DNA of 64,000 nucleotides from Atopobium massiliense. Lineage in GTDB: Bacteria; Actinomycetota; Coriobacteriia; Coriobacteriales; Atopobiaceae. The stretch spans positions 186,001 through 250,000 of the forward strand of contig OPYK01000001.1 in assembly GCA_900343135.1 (NCBI GenBank). Reading direction: 5' to 3'. Made by a program: the position numbers and the translations under genes. Below are positions 1,573 to 53,361 of this stretch, piece after piece (the stretch's first letter is position 1; every line of letters starts with the position of its first letter). The notes beneath the pieces were generated by a model. It saw only the letters and a program-made list of their open reading frames with translations, made no database searches and was not told the DNA's origin.

Positions 1573-2316
1573 TTACACCTTAAGCAACTTCACAAGATGA
1601 ACACGTGTGCCACGATGACATACACGCTTGGTGATAGAAACTTCATCAACCAAAATACGCATAAGCTGAATACCACGACCGCGCTCGGCATAGCTATGCT
1701 CCGGTGCAGACGGCGCGGTTTGTGCATTATCCAGGGCAAAACCCTGCCCACAATCGGATACATCCATCGCAACCCTATCGGCATACACAGAAATTTGCAC
1801 CATAGCGCAATCACTGTGCGCGTGGTCGGCAACGTTGCCCATAGCCTCACCTATGGCGAGCATCATATCAAAACGCATATCATCGCTGCATTGGATGTCG
1901 TTTAACACATCCTGCACACGCGCACGCGTGGCGGCTAAATCGCTGGTAGTTATTTCGACAACACGCTGCCATAGCGCTTCAGCATGAGTATCCACATCGG
2001 CAATTGCATGCGTGTGAAACGTACGCACCGAAATGTAATCAACCATACGACTAATTTTTAGCGCGCGAAGCACATGCGGATGCACTTCAACAAAACGCAC
2101 GGAGCCGCCGTATGCGCGCACGCTACGCACGGTGCACCACAGCATTGCCATGCCTGCAGAATCAACGTAGTGCACATCGCGCAAATTAAGTATAAGTGTA
2201 GGACAATTGGCGTTAATATAATCGCGAATAGTGTCGCGAATACGCGCAACTGTTGTAACATCGATATCAGACGGTATCGCTATAAGGCCAACATTCATTA
2301 TTGCATTCATATGCAT
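1573..2316 (-). CDS. STAS-HATPase fusion: anti-anti-sigma domain joined to an RsbW-like serine kinase
   Basis: A 247-residue cytoplasmic regulator. Residues ~8-110 form an STAS domain of the RsbV/SpoIIAA type, with the phosphorylatable serine in VHYVDSAGMAML. Residues ~115-247 form a GHKL ATPase of the RsbW/SpoIIAB type with all its motifs: the N-box GEAMGNVADHAH, the G1 box DCGQGF and the G2 box GRGIQLMRIL. In standard circuits these are two proteins: the kinase phosphorylates the STAS serine and, when the STAS protein is dephosphorylated, releases sigma. Here one chain could phosphorylate its own STAS domain or that of a partner. It lies 73 bp behind a PP2C phosphatase gene on the same strand, the expected opposing enzyme. 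ATG start at 2316 with AGGGA seven bases upstream. Family assignment is firm; the partner is inferred. Confidence 0.88.
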   Translation of the reverse strand: MHMNAIMNVGLIAIPSDIDVTTVARIRDTIRDYINANCPTLILNLRDVHYVDSAGMAMLWCTVRSVRAYGGSVRFVEVHPHVLRALKISRMVDYISVRTFHTHAIADVDTHAEALWQRVVEITTSDLAATRARVQDVLNDIQCSDDMRFDMMLAIGEAMGNVADHAHSDCAMVQISVYADRVAMDVSDCGQGFALDNAQTAPSAPEHSYAERGRGIQLMRILVDEVSITKRVCHRGTRVHLVKLLKV

Positions 2317-2389: not shown

Positions 2390-4840
2390 CTACGCATCCT
2401 TCGCGCAATTGGGACAATGCTTTGAGTGCACGTTGTCAAAACGTAGCGCGACCATTGCCACATCATCGTCCAAATGCTGCGACGTAAACACATCAAGCCG
2501 ATGAAGCAGACGATGCAGCAAACCACGAAATCCGCAGCTACGCTCTTGTATAAGCGCGTCGATAAGACCGTCCTCACCAAAAAACGCACCATCCTGCGCC
2601 CGCGCCTCGGTAGTACCATCGGTATACAGCAGCAATATATCGCGCGTATCAAGCTCAATTACACCATTTTGGTAATGCATATCGTGAAACGCACCCACCA
2701 CACCTGATTGCACTGAAAGCGGAATAATATCGCTCGTATGTGCACGTATAAGCATCGCGGGCGGGTGTCCTGCCGAGCAATACGTAAGCGTTGCCTCGTT
2801 AAGATCGATGCAGCCCACAAACAACGTTGCAAAGGTTTCAAGCCTAGAAAATCCCAACAGAAAATCGTTGAGAAGCCCAACCATATGCGCCGGAGTAAGT
2901 CCCTGCCACGAATACGCCGCAAGCGCGGTTTTTACTGCAGCAGAAACCGACGCTGCTTCTACCCCTTTGCCCGAAACATCGCCCATAACAACACACGCTT
3001 TATTGCCTGGCAAACGCACCAAATCGTAAAAATCGCCACCAATACTTGCTGCTTGCGTTGCCGAAGAGTAAATTCCCTGCGCGCTTATGCCGTCTACCTG
3101 CTGAAGTTCATTTTTCATGCCCGTTTGCAGCGCCTGAGCGATATGTTCTTCTTGGCTATGCTTTGCCGACGTTTGAGAAATACTATAGATGTCTTGCGTA
3201 ATACGGCGTATAAACGCAAGCTCACTTGTGTCAAACAGCGGATCGTCAAGACTGCGCGCAAACACACACGCATAGCGTTTGTTGTTGATAGTGCCCATAT
3301 CGGCTATAACACCGCGGCAGGAAGGAAGCACGCTACATATGGCTTGTCCTATAGCGTCGTTTGCGCTAAATGGCTCAAGCAACACGCCATGATGCACAGA
3401 GCGCTCAAGACGTTGTAATTCAGGCGCAAACGCATATGTTGCCCCCGATGTGCACTCAAGCACGTAAGGCGTGGTTATAGCGCGCCCAGAGGGCGACGTA
3501 ATAGACTGCGCAGCTACAGAAGTTGCGGGTCGTGCCAGTGGCTTATCTGCGGCTGCGTCATGAGCACGAGCACTCACATCGCTCGCATTGCGCGGCCGAA
3601 TAAAATAAAGCTGACAGATAAGCATATTGGCTACAGCTACAGCCGCACGTTTAATTGCTGCAAAGGTAACAGTTTCGCGGTCGAGCAGCGTATCACGAAT
3701 GGTGGTAGCCGCCTGAAGTAGCTGATGCTCCTTGCGCGCGCGCATTGCCGAAAGCGCACCTACCAGCTGTACCGAAAGATACTGCACAACAGAATCGAGC
3801 AGGTCACTATCCTCTTTTATGGTGGTATGTGCCTTCTTCCACCCCACCTGCAACAGCGCAAGTGCAGTGTCTTCATACCAAATAGCAACACTCATGTAAC
3901 TTGTAAAAACGGGCACATATTGAGGCTCACAGGTATATATCTCATGTGTTTCTTCGTTGATAACATCGCGCGGGCAAGGCTTTTGTGTGCGCAAATCCTG
4001 CTGTGTAGGCGCAAGAACACGCAAACGCTGTGTTGCATGTGCTTCAAGCACCTTTGCACACAATTGTGAGCTTGTGGGAATACAGCGCGCAGGTGACGTG
4101 TGAGAAAGGCTCGCCGAGGCGCCCTTAAGATAAAATGCATCACCTTCGCGAATATAAAACAGTGTGCCGGATGCTTCCATAGTATCACCCAATAAGTCGA
4201 GAACGCGAGCACATAAGGTGTCAATATCCTGCGAATCAAGCGTACCTAATACAATTTTAAGCGTACCGGAAAGGCGTTTATTTGCGCGCGCAAGCTCATG
4301 TACAAGCTTGTTATAGGTGTCTTGTGAGCGCGCCTGTGCATCAAGATTACATGCCACAAGCATGTACAGCTCTGTTTCTGGATGCTCCCACGACGTGTTA
4401 GTTATGCGGTCGCAGACAACGCGCAGGTGCTGCGTTGCACCCTGTGCATCAGCGCAGGCAAGCGAAAGGGTTCCTGAGCTTCCAGTTTCGTCTATAAACG
4501 ACACAATAGACATATCGCGCACACGCAAGGTGGCAAACTGCTCACTTGGGTCGAATACGCTCGATCGTACGGGCGATAACACAAAGCGAATATCGCTATG
4601 TGCCACCGTGCCAACCTGCGCGTAAAACATATGCTCTGCAGCGTCGTTAGCAGCGTGAATATAGCCCGTTGCATCAAAAAGAAGCACGGCACTTGCACTT
4701 GTAGTAAACAGGCGACAAAACGCATACGCTTGGTGCGCCGTATCAAACAAGGGTGCTGATTGCGCAGGATGTGCCGGCGGTTCAGGATGCGCCGCGCGGG
4801 ATACGTTGGATATATCGTGTGACGGTTCTAAAGGATTCAT
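2390..4840 (-). CDS. SpoIIE/RsbU-type PP2C serine phosphatase with PAS and GAF sensor regions
   Basis: An 816-residue protein. Residues ~35-150 resemble a PAS sensor (TSASAVLLFDATGYIHAAND). Residues ~190-400 and ~415-570 look like two GAF-type modules joined by helical linkers. The last ~230 residues are a PP2C-like phosphatase with GGDFYD, GDVSGKG, AGHPPAM, LLYTDGTTEA and a terminal HLDDDVAMVAL, which supply the metal-binding aspartates. Such enzymes dephosphorylate STAS anti-anti-sigma proteins in response to a stress signal. The C-terminus ends in a small CPNC motif. I start at ATG 4840 rather than an upstream codon at 4921, because the PAS region follows naturally and the extra 27 residues look like translated leader. 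It probably forms an operon with the STAS-HATPase fusion downstream. No membrane span is seen, so any signal is probably intracellular. Confidence 0.9.
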   Translation of the reverse strand: MNPLEPSHDISNVSRAAHPEPPAHPAQSAPLFDTAHQAYAFCRLFTTSASAVLLFDATGYIHAANDAAEHMFYAQVGTVAHSDIRFVLSPVRSSVFDPSEQFATLRVRDMSIVSFIDETGSSGTLSLACADAQGATQHLRVVCDRITNTSWEHPETELYMLVACNLDAQARSQDTYNKLVHELARANKRLSGTLKIVLGTLDSQDIDTLCARVLDLLGDTMEASGTLFYIREGDAFYLKGASASLSHTSPARCIPTSSQLCAKVLEAHATQRLRVLAPTQQDLRTQKPCPRDVINEETHEIYTCEPQYVPVFTSYMSVAIWYEDTALALLQVGWKKAHTTIKEDSDLLDSVVQYLSVQLVGALSAMRARKEHQLLQAATTIRDTLLDRETVTFAAIKRAAVAVANMLICQLYFIRPRNASDVSARAHDAAADKPLARPATSVAAQSITSPSGRAITTPYVLECTSGATYAFAPELQRLERSVHHGVLLEPFSANDAIGQAICSVLPSCRGVIADMGTINNKRYACVFARSLDDPLFDTSELAFIRRITQDIYSISQTSAKHSQEEHIAQALQTGMKNELQQVDGISAQGIYSSATQAASIGGDFYDLVRLPGNKACVVMGDVSGKGVEAASVSAAVKTALAAYSWQGLTPAHMVGLLNDFLLGFSRLETFATLFVGCIDLNEATLTYCSAGHPPAMLIRAHTSDIIPLSVQSGVVGAFHDMHYQNGVIELDTRDILLLYTDGTTEARAQDGAFFGEDGLIDALIQERSCGFRGLLHRLLHRLDVFTSQHLDDDVAMVALRFDNVHSKHCPNCAKDA

Positions 4841-5010
4841 AGCTATCTTTTCGGTAGAACGTACTGATAAAAAGAAGAATACTACAGTTTGAACAAAAAA
4901 TGCGTGCGGACACGGGTGCAAGCAATGGTGCGCGCATACCTACGTGCAATGCGGGCACATCATCTCAATACTTCATCGCAATACTGATACATCATCCAGT
5001 ACAAAGGCAC

Positions 5011-47135: not shown

Positions 47136-47999
47136 CTACAGCGACGGGTCGAGCTTTTCTTGTAACTTGCGCAAGGTATTACGCAATAGGCGTGATACCT
47201 GTACCTGCGATATCTGCAACTTATCGGCAATTTCAACCTGAGTCATTCCATCAAGAAAACGCATGCGGATAATCTGTTGTTCACGCTCGGTGCAATTTTT
47301 AATAATTTCCTGAAGAACAAGCTTATCGTCGCAGGCTTCCAAATCGTCGTCTACCGAAGCATAGGTATCAAGCACGCTTGTTGCCGCTGAGCCGTCGTCG
47401 TTATCTACAGTGGGTACGTCGAGCGAAACAGAGCTATAGGCACGCGACGACTCCATTGCCTCAAGCACTTCATCAACACTAACATGAAGCTCACGGGCAA
47501 TTTCCTCAACAGATGGCGAATGCTGCAACTTTTCAGTAAGCATATCGGTTGCTTGGCTTACCTTGCTTGAAAGCTCCTGCAAGCGGCGCGGGACACGCAC
47601 CGACCAGCTCCTATCACGAAAATGGCGCTTAATTTCACCTAAAATGGTAGGCGTAGCAAAGGTAGTAAACTCCAGGCCCCTATCGATATCAAACCTGTCG
47701 ATTGCTTTAATAAGGCCAATTGTTGCCACCTGAATGAGGTCATCGAGCGACTCACCACGATTTTTAAATTTTGATGCAAGAAAACGTGCCAAATTAAGGT
47801 GATTGAGAACAAGCTGATTACGCGCTTCTTCATCGCCATGACGCTTAAACTTTATGAAAAGCTCACGGGTACGCTGCTTGTCCCATGCAGCCGTTTGCGA
47901 CGAACGCGCACTGCGCCTGCGTGCTAACGGTTGAGAATCCACCCTGGACGCTTCTTCCTTAGGAGTTTCTTCCTTGGGCGTTTCGTTATTCGTCGTCAT
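47136..47999 (-). CDS. sigB: RNA polymerase sigma factor, SigB/SigF/SigG family
   Basis: A 287-residue group 3 sigma-70 factor. After a charged, Lys/Glu-rich N-terminal ~45 residues come region 2 (NLARFLASKFKNRGESLDDL, then ATIGLIKAIDRFDIDRGLEF and FATPTILGEIKRHFRDRSW), region 3 (VPRRLQELSSKV; EIARELHVSVDEVLEAME) and region 4 (REQQIIRMRFLDGMTQVEIA, then a helix-turn-helix QISQVQVSRLLRNTLRKL). This matches the stress/sporulation class held by RsbW-type anti-sigma factors. ATG 47999 overlaps the anti-sigma-like gene by 14 bases, the classical rsbW-sigB coupling. As no sporulation genes are seen, a general stress role is most likely. Confidence 0.92.
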   Translation of the reverse strand: MTTNNETPKEETPKEEASRVDSQPLARRRSARSSQTAAWDKQRTRELFIKFKRHGDEEARNQLVLNHLNLARFLASKFKNRGESLDDLIQVATIGLIKAIDRFDIDRGLEFTTFATPTILGEIKRHFRDRSWSVRVPRRLQELSSKVSQATDMLTEKLQHSPSVEEIARELHVSVDEVLEAMESSRAYSSVSLDVPTVDNDDGSAATSVLDTYASVDDDLEACDDKLVLQEIIKNCTEREQQIIRMRFLDGMTQVEIADKLQISQVQVSRLLRNTLRKLQEKLDPSL

Positions 48000-48360
48000 A
48001 CACACGCCCAATCGTTTTTTCGATATGAAGCACGTTATCTTCTATAGAGAACGAATCACTTACCGCAGACAACATCATTTCAACAAGACGTATGTCTTCA
48101 TCGTCAATGGTATGAAACGGCTTTGAGCCAAGCGTTGCAGAAATAGACGCAACCGAATTGTTCAGCTCAAAACTAAGTGTGCACATATCCGCTGCCGTAG
48201 AACAGCTATACACGAATGCTTCTTCGGCTGCCATGCGCAAATCTTCTACGTCGTCTACACTCATATTGCACACAACAGCTAAGTTTGCGGCCATCATACG
48301 CACACAGCGGGCAAATTTTGGCTGCGCGGGAATAGTAAGGCTTATTGGTTTATTGTTCAT
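47986..48360 (-). CDS. degenerate RsbW-like anti-sigma factor
   Basis: A 124-residue protein in the position of rsbW, overlapping sigB. It keeps the RsbW opening (LTIPAQPKFARCVRMMAANL; VDDVEDLRMAAEEAFVYSCS), but the N-box Asn that holds Mg-ATP is Tyr and the His four further on is Thr. The G1 box (D-x-G-x-G) is absent, and the glycine-rich G2 box is replaced by DDEDIRLVEMMLSAV. It is also ~35 residues shorter than Bacillus RsbW. It can probably still bind sigma but not ATP, so it should not be a kinase. ATG 48360 overlaps the DUF948-like gene by 11 bases, giving a three-gene coupled operon. Confidence 0.8.
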   Translation of the reverse strand: MNNKPISLTIPAQPKFARCVRMMAANLAVVCNMSVDDVEDLRMAAEEAFVYSCSTAADMCTLSFELNNSVASISATLGSKPFHTIDDEDIRLVEMMLSAVSDSFSIEDNVLHIEKTIGRVYDDE

Positions 48361-49054
48361 GTTCGGTATCACCATCTTTGTTGGTTGCCGCAGGCTCGGG
48401 ATAGGTTATGTACGTGCGAGCAGCATACGTGGGCCTAGTTTGCGTGTGGGCGGACGTGTTGGGAGTTTCAGCAGTGCTACCTGCTACATGAGCAGCAGCA
48501 CCTGCATCGTGTGTGTCATCAACTTCGCGACCAGCAGCTTGACCAACAGCATAAGCAGGATTTCCGCCAGCAATCTGTCCGCGTGCTTCACCTGACGCGT
48601 CTTCATCGCTCACCCTATCAAACATCTGGCGCGATGTTTTGTATCCACTCATAAAATGTTGAGCAAAGGTTGAAGCGGTAGACGTTATGCCAGATATTGC
48701 CCCTTGTGCCACGCCCGCAACAGTATTTGCCGCACCTGCTGCCGAATCGGAAACCTCGCGCACATGCTCCAAAATAACTTCGGTTGTGTTAAGCTGCCCT
48801 TGGAGCTGCGCTACCGTTACATGGGTATCTTCGAGCAACGACGAAAGCTCCTTCACAGATGGCTGCAAATCGTCGAGCGTTGCATCAATTTTTTGAATAA
48901 CAGGCTCTACTTGATCCATTGTTTGGCAGGTAGTGTGCACAAACGTTTGCAAATCGCCGCGCACACGACGCAGCGTGATAACAAACTCAACAGTTGCAAC
49001 AAGCACACAAATGCACAATATAGCTGCCACGATATATGGTAGATAAGTTTCCAT
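48350..49054 (-). CDS. DUF948-like membrane-anchored coiled-coil protein
   Basis: A 234-residue protein with one N-terminal span (~residues 5-27, YIVAAILCICVLVATVEFVI) followed by a long helical region (30-125) with heptad-like LQTFVHTTCQ, IDATLDDLQPSVKELSSLL and VTVAQLQGQLNTTEV segments. This is the layout of DUF948/YtxG proteins, some of which are general stress proteins under SigB in Bacillus. The last ~80 residues are low-complexity Ala/Thr/Gly. It leads the operon whose next genes are the anti-sigma-like protein and sigma factor, which suggests co-regulation with, or autoregulation by, the sigma. Confidence 0.75.
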   Translation of the reverse strand: METYLPYIVAAILCICVLVATVEFVITLRRVRGDLQTFVHTTCQTMDQVEPVIQKIDATLDDLQPSVKELSSLLEDTHVTVAQLQGQLNTTEVILEHVREVSDSAAGAANTVAGVAQGAISGITSTASTFAQHFMSGYKTSRQMFDRVSDEDASGEARGQIAGGNPAYAVGQAAGREVDDTHDAGAAAHVAGSTAETPNTSAHTQTRPTYAARTYITYPEPAATNKDGDTEHEQ

Positions 49055-51989: not shown

Positions 51990-53177
51990 TTATGACTTCG
52001 AAGAAAAGGCACCTACAAGCTGCGGAATCTGCAACGCAAGCTCCTGCGCAATTTGCGCTGCGCCCGTTTTTCCGGGATGGACATACCCGTCGGCAAGATG
52101 TGCGGTTGAGTGTTCCATAAGCAAAGAGCCATCAATGCTATACATCTCATCATACTGAGCAATAGCAGCATGAATAAAGGTATTTACCTGGTTATATGCA
52201 CTCATTGCGTTGGGCGGAAAATAATCGGGATTATGCCAAAACATATCAATGCAGCACACCGGAACATGTGGCCACACGCGCCTGAGCTCATCAAAATAGC
52301 GGTGAATGTCCGTACTAACTTCGCGCGGACGTGAAGGCTCGTAGCGATAGTTGGTGCCAAGTGCAACAATAATGCACACAGGAACAATATACTGCGCAAG
52401 CCCCCACAACAAACCTGGTTGAAACACCGCACCACCAAGTGACTGATTGAGAATTTCGCAGCCGATAGTATCGGCAAATACAGACGGCCAGCTATACGCG
52501 CTATCGCCAACAATAAATCCCTGGCTAATAGAGTCGCCCAATACGAGCACCTGCGCCCGCGCCGTAACAGGAGAAATAAAACTACCGTTACCCCAAAGCG
52601 AACGAAGAACACAGCCGCGCAAGCTTGGCAGCCATATGCGCACGTGACGCGTACCAGCAAAACCGGGAAGCTGAATCATGCCCGCAAGCGCAGACGCAGC
52701 AGGTTCACTTAAGGGAAACGATATCTGCGCTGCATCATGAGGCATAAACGCAGGTATATGCCTATCATCAATATCAATTGATATACCGTCGCACGCCGTT
52801 TGCGCAGAAGAATCACCTGCAATTTCATCGCAGGTAACATGCGTACGCACACCACGTGCAATCTCAATCATGTGACGCGTTGCCGAAGGCTCAGCATCAA
52901 GCATAATTTCGAGGATAATTTCGGAAGAATCGGTTGTAAATTCGAGAAACATACCTGCCGTACAGCGCGCCATTTGGCGAAATAAGCCAGGGTGCCAGGA
53001 GCGGCAACTGCCCAGCTGCTGATATTGGTCGATGCTCATGCGCCAAGGACGCTGCCAGGATGTATGTTCTGTGGTAATGCGAATGGCTCCATGAAGCAAG
53101 GATGTTGCAGCTACTTCTACCCCTGATGCACCAAACTGATGGCGATTTTTTGGGCGCGGGCTGATGAGAATGCTCAT
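51990..53177 (-). CDS. SGNH/GDSL-family hydrolase (carbohydrate esterase-like)
   Basis: A 395-residue protein without obvious signal peptide. Residues ~95-210 look like a beta-sandwich N-domain, as in CE2-type esterases. Residues ~215-390 are the SGNH catalytic domain: block I VLVLGDSISQGF with nucleophile Ser, a Gly in QSLGGAVFQ, block III IIVALGTNYRYE (Asn) and block V ADGYVHPGKTG with the Asp-His pair. It may deacetylate oligosaccharides or lipids. ATG 53177 has GGAG four bases upstream, only eight bases after the CCA end of tRNA-Gly, so it is probably on the tRNA transcript. A longer reading would cross both tRNA genes. The C-terminal gene end lies 192 bp from dgt. Confidence 0.82.
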   Translation of the reverse strand: MSILISPRPKNRHQFGASGVEVAATSLLHGAIRITTEHTSWQRPWRMSIDQYQQLGSCRSWHPGLFRQMARCTAGMFLEFTTDSSEIILEIMLDAEPSATRHMIEIARGVRTHVTCDEIAGDSSAQTACDGISIDIDDRHIPAFMPHDAAQISFPLSEPAASALAGMIQLPGFAGTRHVRIWLPSLRGCVLRSLWGNGSFISPVTARAQVLVLGDSISQGFIVGDSAYSWPSVFADTIGCEILNQSLGGAVFQPGLLWGLAQYIVPVCIIVALGTNYRYEPSRPREVSTDIHRYFDELRRVWPHVPVCCIDMFWHNPDYFPPNAMSAYNQVNTFIHAAIAQYDEMYSIDGSLLMEHSTAHLADGYVHPGKTGAAQIAQELALQIPQLVGAFSSKS

Positions 53178-53190
53178 GGAACTCCAATTA

Positions 53191-53266
<76 letters not shown>

Positions 53267-53284
53267 GAAAAGCCGCAAAAAAAA

Positions 53285-53361
53285 TGGTCGGGGTGACTGG
53301 ATTCGAACCAGCGACCCTCTGCTCCCAAAGCAGATGCGCTACCAAGCTGCGCTACACCCCG
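53285..53361 (-). tRNA. tRNA-Pro (anticodon TGG)
   Basis: A 77-nt cloverleaf with encoded CCA. The anticodon loop TTTGGGA gives TGG. The acceptor stem CGGGGTG/CACCCCG is complete. It is 18 bp upstream of tRNA-Gly. Confidence 0.95.

Follow-up and report, generated by a model that had tools for sequence, protein, structure and literature searches.

In Bacillus subtilis, RsbW carries intact ATP-site motifs and serves both as the anti-sigma factor and as the kinase. In the 64,000-nucleotide stretch of the Atopobium massiliense genome analysed here (the window), the gene that occupies the rsbW position beside a SigB-type sigma factor gene specifies a protein in which these motifs are not recognisable. 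This raises the question of what such a protein does, and of which protein would act as the kinase in its place. A first-pass annotation of the DNA had proposed that the protein is a pure sigma holder, and that it thereby breaks the standard rule that the anti-sigma factor is also the kinase of the STAS protein. The genes at the locus are as follows.

47136..47999, minus strand: SigB/SigF/SigG-type sigma factor, 287 aa from the ATG at 47999, downstream of the anti-sigma gene.
47986..48360, minus strand: predicted kinase-dead RsbW/UsfX-type anti-sigma factor, 124 aa, with Tyr51 and Thr55, without G1 and G2 boxes, and with Arg21 and Glu47 kept.
48350..49054, minus strand: DUF948-like coiled-coil/membrane protein, encoded upstream; its gene shares 11 nt with the beginning of the anti-sigma gene.

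The anti-sigma reading frame begins with an ATG at 48360 and its stop codon ends at 47986, so that the sigma factor gene, starting at 47999, overlaps it by 14 nt; both the gene position and the overlap are as the first-pass annotation had them. Its description of the N-terminus as RsbW-like was also borne out, since the N-terminal half (residues 3-56) matches the RsbW model TIGR01924 with an E value of 4e-6, and B. subtilis RsbW (PDB 6m36) was matched at E 0.003 with the single sequence and at 5.8e-12 with a family profile. The protein nevertheless misses the equivalog cut-off of TIGR01924 (26.4 versus 155.05 bits) as well as the Pfam cut-off (15.6 versus 27.4 bits), and TIGR01925 reaches an E value of only 0.073. 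The adjacent sigma factor lies above the cut-off of TIGR02980 (277.7 bits against 234.35; E 7.5e-83), its best PDB match being 8x6g_H and its second 1l0o_C, the sigma factor in a complex with SpoIIAB. The DUF948 match of the upstream protein is below the Pfam cut-off; the gene itself, positioned at the anti-sigma start, is a conserved neighbour in the Coriobacteriales. Promoter and terminator scans found nothing.

With regard to the ATP site, alignment with intact proteins placed Tyr51 at the position of the N-box Asn and Thr55 at that of the N-box His, both of which are present in 33/33 intact comparison rows, as selected by a pattern demanding both residues. Neither the DxGxG motif of the G1 box nor a glycine-rich G2 box is found in the sequence or in an AlphaFold2 (AF2) model built from a 31-row alignment (pLDDT 90.9, pTM 0.86), and the rest of the chain contains no N, G1 or G2 box either. 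The secondary structure of the model (E6-11, H14-30, H35-54, E59-66, E70-76, H88-100, E103-107, E110-116) has the order E-H-H-E-E-H-E-E, from which the ATP-lid segment is missing. Structural comparison of the model, which had been suggested as a check on the original reading, matched it to an RsbW-type fold like that of B. subtilis RsbW and Mycobacterium tuberculosis UsfX: Foldseek recovered 6m36 and 6m37 at E values from 1.8e-8 (6m37) upward, the UsfX-RsfB complex 8ih8 at 1.8e-7, the SigF-UsfX complex 8jzt at 5.4e-7, and SpoIIAB (1til, 1l0o) at about 2e-6 to 3e-6. The predicted protein thus shares with B. subtilis RsbW its fold (TM 0.75-0.89), its N-terminal sequence and its place beside a SigB-type sigma gene, and differs in lacking the ATP-site motifs. 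With SpoIIAB, an ATP-dependent kinase, it shares the fold and a surface arginine, Arg21, whose counterpart in SpoIIAB, Arg20, contacts sigma F and SpoIIAA.

What appears to be kept, then, is the RsbW fold together with the arginine used by SpoIIAB, while the ATP site is gone. Arg21 and the N-box Glu47, neither of which the first-pass annotation mentions, occur in every one of the 75 sequences compared, whether kinase-dead or intact; because intact kinases have them too, these residues are not a marker of sigma binding and do not tell holders and kinases apart. A holder without an ATP site should have no kinase activity and no need of ATP. Its ATP-independence may be doubted because nucleotide binding and hydrolysis were reportedly claimed for UsfX, despite its lost motifs, in a 2008 paper. 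Together with the invariance of Glu47, this claim favours a different reading, in which the site is degenerate yet nucleotide is bound at a remodelled pocket and sigma binding is still nucleotide-sensitive. We consider this unlikely given the loss of Asn51, His55, G1 and G2 and the absence of the lid segment from the model. RsbW1 of M. smegmatis failed to phosphorylate RsfB when given ATP (PMC7693655), a result that counts against kinase activity and not against binding.

A short, divergent reading frame below the Pfam cut-off might also be a decaying gene or a chance ORF. A scan of public genomes identified 33 relatives, all in a Coriobacteriia-type context, and the sigma factor gene directly adjoins the anti-sigma gene in all 33 of these class loci, overlapping it in most. 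In a census of 398 Coriobacteriia genomes the anti-sigma factor was present in 242 and a sigma factor above the TIGR02980 cut-off in 240, so that about 60% of the genomes sampled have the gene pair. Fourteen columns are invariant in the 31-row alignment, including R42-M-A-A-E-E47, F49, V50, L97 and D102. This conservation, with the fixed gene position and the conserved sigma overlap, refutes decay, which we regard as next to impossible. Nor is loss of the kinase site by chance or decay compatible with its being common to 53 distinct Coriobacteriia homologs: the homolog search proposed for the missing motifs found DxGxG in 0/53 and Asn at residue 51 in 0/53, the residue being Tyr in 42, Phe in six, Leu in three and Cys in two. 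Seven further homologs outside the search pattern (VAEEAFVY, AADEAFVY, IAEEGFVY or IADEGFVY) are likewise without the Asn.

Gene order around the pair is also conserved. In Coriobacteriales loci on sufficiently long contigs, the order rarA, DUF948-like gene, anti-sigma gene, sigma gene, alaS is kept, and in deeper families the rarA-alaS order is found without a DUF948 match. Atopobiaceae-type loci mostly show an 11-nt overlap between the sigma and anti-sigma genes; in others the two genes overlap by, or are separated by, a few bases. The four Eggerthellaceae loci that were read have rarA and alaS with no anti-sigma/sigma pair in between. A few class genomes contain two matches to the anti-sigma profile (G368, at G368:C1:134057-137470, as well as G247, G291 and G087); in G368 both the anti-sigma and the sigma gene occur twice, 2.2 kb apart and with identical scores, which may reflect a tandem duplication or an assembly artefact. 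Within the window, a minus-strand ORF at 51990-53345 has a 5' part that is non-protein, crossing a tRNA-Gly gene (53191-53266) and most of a tRNA-Pro gene (53285-53361).

Kinase-dead homologs extend well beyond the class, and the idea that the A. massiliense gene is a local oddity of one genome was dropped. Of 296 Actinomycetota genomes sampled, 150 gave matches to the class profile, including a few to intact kinases. Among the loci read outside the class, 32/33 encode a kinase-dead homolog, and a SigB/F-type gene lies directly downstream in 30 of those 32. UsfX, whose N-box region reads DEVCTRLIRSA, similarly lacks the Asn. In a tree of 75 sequences (42 kinase-dead, comprising 13 from the class, 28 others and UsfX, and 33 intact), for which the two labels were set by the N-box itself and rows off pattern such as L167-L169 were excluded, the 42 kinase-dead rows form one side of a branch with support of 100/99. 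The tree alignment is short (96-136 columns), and two of its rows are Bacillus reference sequences (RsbW and SpoIIAB) entered by hand. After removal of the N-box and G1-G2 columns the split still required a single change, with support of 74/87 and in 72% of bootstraps. Because all kinase-dead rows group together in this way, we abandoned the notion that the class lost its kinase site independently of UsfX; the tree suggests instead that the loss was one ancient event in the Actinomycetota and not a mycobacterial quirk. Two kinase-dead proteins from other Actinomycetota, L120 and L132, have an N-box-like His and Asn one residue off register (EAWNHAISH and EASNYAIAH), perhaps as remnants of an intact site.

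Loss of the ATP/kinase site is therefore a normal and already described state in the Actinomycetota, represented by the tuberculosis-type UsfX/RsbW1 proteins. In M. smegmatis, RsbW1 is the anti-SigF factor and has no kinase activity in vitro (PMC7693655), and RsbW2, in which the N, G1 and G2 boxes are present, is the sole RsfB kinase and does not bind SigF (PMC7693655, PMC10950880); the authors describe RsbW1 as a specialised holder and RsbW2 as a specialised kinase (PMC7693655). The A. massiliense protein resembles RsbW1 and UsfX in being a kinase-dead RsbW fold encoded directly upstream of a SigB/F-type sigma gene, and it falls in the tree group of UsfX; it differs in its low identity to them (15-19% in structural alignments), and its binding of sigma is a prediction. 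Of the original proposal, then, the sigma holder fits an RsbW-type anti-sigma factor without a recognisable ATP or kinase site, whereas the claim of novelty does not stand, as the loss is common to a large Actinomycetota group and the division between holder and kinase was already demonstrated in M. smegmatis (PMC7693655).

The missing kinase would be encoded by a separate gene. The genome encodes the following candidates for the remaining components, two of them in the window.

1576..2316, minus strand: STAS-HATPase fusion (P0002), 247 aa, the probable separate kinase of the switch.
2390..4921, minus strand: SpoIIE-type PP2C phosphatase (PF07228, E 2.3e-44), the probable input phosphatase, immediately upstream of the fusion.
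G000:C10:84893-85150 (L039:1456-1773): free STAS protein whose STAS site is the canonical IDSTG, encoded between the genes for a TPR-type protein and a tatA/B-like protein.

The fusion combines a STAS motif, VDSAG, with a kinase N-box (EAMGNVADH), G1 box (DCGQGF) and G2 box (RGRGI), and its C-terminal half is the sole HATPase_c_2 match above cut-off in the genome; two weaker matches, in frames of 446 and 505 residues, are probably histidine kinases. The phosphatase, which has weak PAS and GAF matches, is likewise the only SpoIIE match above cut-off, and of the 20 Atopobiaceae-type fusion loci read, that of A. massiliense included, 16 have a SpoIIE gene next to the fusion. The fusion is class-wide outside the Eggerthellaceae; it is present in 241 of the 398 Coriobacteriia genomes, for the most part those that also have the anti-sigma and sigma genes. 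Counted by hand from two census tables, 234 genomes have both the fusion and the anti-sigma factor, eight the anti-sigma factor only, seven the fusion only and 149 neither, a co-occurrence that rests on few independent losses, chiefly that in the Eggerthellaceae. One genome with the fusion and without the sigma pair (G130) also lacks rarA, so that an assembly gap is the simplest reading and we did not retain it as a true exception. We first supposed that STAS and kinase are encoded by separate genes in deeper families. This was wrong: those genomes also have the fusion, and the additional match is a stand-alone STAS protein; free STAS proteins similar to that of A. massiliense occur in these families.

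This arrangement parallels the RsfB-RsbW2-RsfR module of M. smegmatis, in which RsfR is the PP2C that dephosphorylates RsfB (PMC7693655, PMC10950880). In both species a STAS domain, an intact RsbW-type kinase and a PP2C are encoded together and away from the sigma/anti-sigma pair, from which the fusion is separated by 46 kb. The A. massiliense system differs in that STAS and kinase form one polypeptide, in that there is a further free STAS protein, and in that the phosphatase has weak PAS/GAF matches instead of the receiver domain of the M. smegmatis module. By this analogy the fusion is likely the separate kinase of the sigma switch, with holder and kinase divided as in M. smegmatis; its joining of STAS and kinase is possibly a new arrangement of that kinase. 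The first-pass annotation had overlooked this probable kinase, which lies in the same window.

The roles could also be reversed, with the small protein an antagonist or decoy and the fusion kinase the real anti-sigma factor. M. smegmatis RsbW3 provides a precedent, being a kinase-dead RsbW paralog that acts as an antagonist, pairing with RsbW1 and freeing the sigma factor (PMC7693655), and the fusion does contain an intact RsbW-type domain, the type of kinase that binds sigma in Bacillus. Several observations make this reversal improbable: the small protein is encoded beside the sigma gene in all 33 class loci of the scan, as rsbW1/usfX is beside sigF, whereas RsbW3 lies beside rsfA and not sigF (PMC7693655); the A. 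massiliense genome has no second kinase-dead paralog; and the fusion is unlinked to the sigma pair. We therefore think it very probable that the anti-sigma factor is dedicated to holding the SigB/F-type sigma factor encoded next to it and belongs to the kinase-dead RsbW/UsfX group, and that the switch is probably run by a separate kinase, phosphatase and STAS protein.

In the mechanism that we favour, the switch would be carried by the intact kinase of the fusion and by the adjacent SpoIIE/PP2C phosphatase, and the antagonist would be a STAS domain, most likely that of the free protein, otherwise that of the fusion. With an active phosphatase, the STAS protein would be dephosphorylated, bind the holder and free the sigma factor; the kinase would reverse the dephosphorylation step, and sigma would be held again. 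The direction of this signal, with PP2C dephosphorylation releasing sigma, is adopted from M. smegmatis. A less conventional possibility, to which we give limited credence, is that the Coriobacteriia switch is unlike any described, the fate of sigma being decided not by the anti-sigma factor but by the STAS-kinase fusion as its own substrate or built-in antagonist, which may dock on the holder.

In the literature collection used, searches for a degenerate RsbW N-box and for a SigB/RsbW system in Coriobacteriia found nothing, and a search on anti-sigma partner-switching in Coriobacteriia returned only a Streptomyces review in which RsbW is not mentioned. Our findings would extend the separation of holder and kinase, demonstrated experimentally for M. 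smegmatis, to a class of anaerobes that live in the gut and mouth. They provide a testable set for stress control in Atopobiaceae and Collinsella: holder, sigma factor, STAS-kinase fusion, PP2C phosphatase and free STAS protein. Annotating such anti-sigma genes as RsbW kinases would wrongly assign them a kinase function. At one locus (L138, genome G424), genes for a kinase-dead anti-sigma factor, a sigma factor and an intact RsbW-type protein are consecutive, from which it follows that holder and kinase are able to be neighbours.
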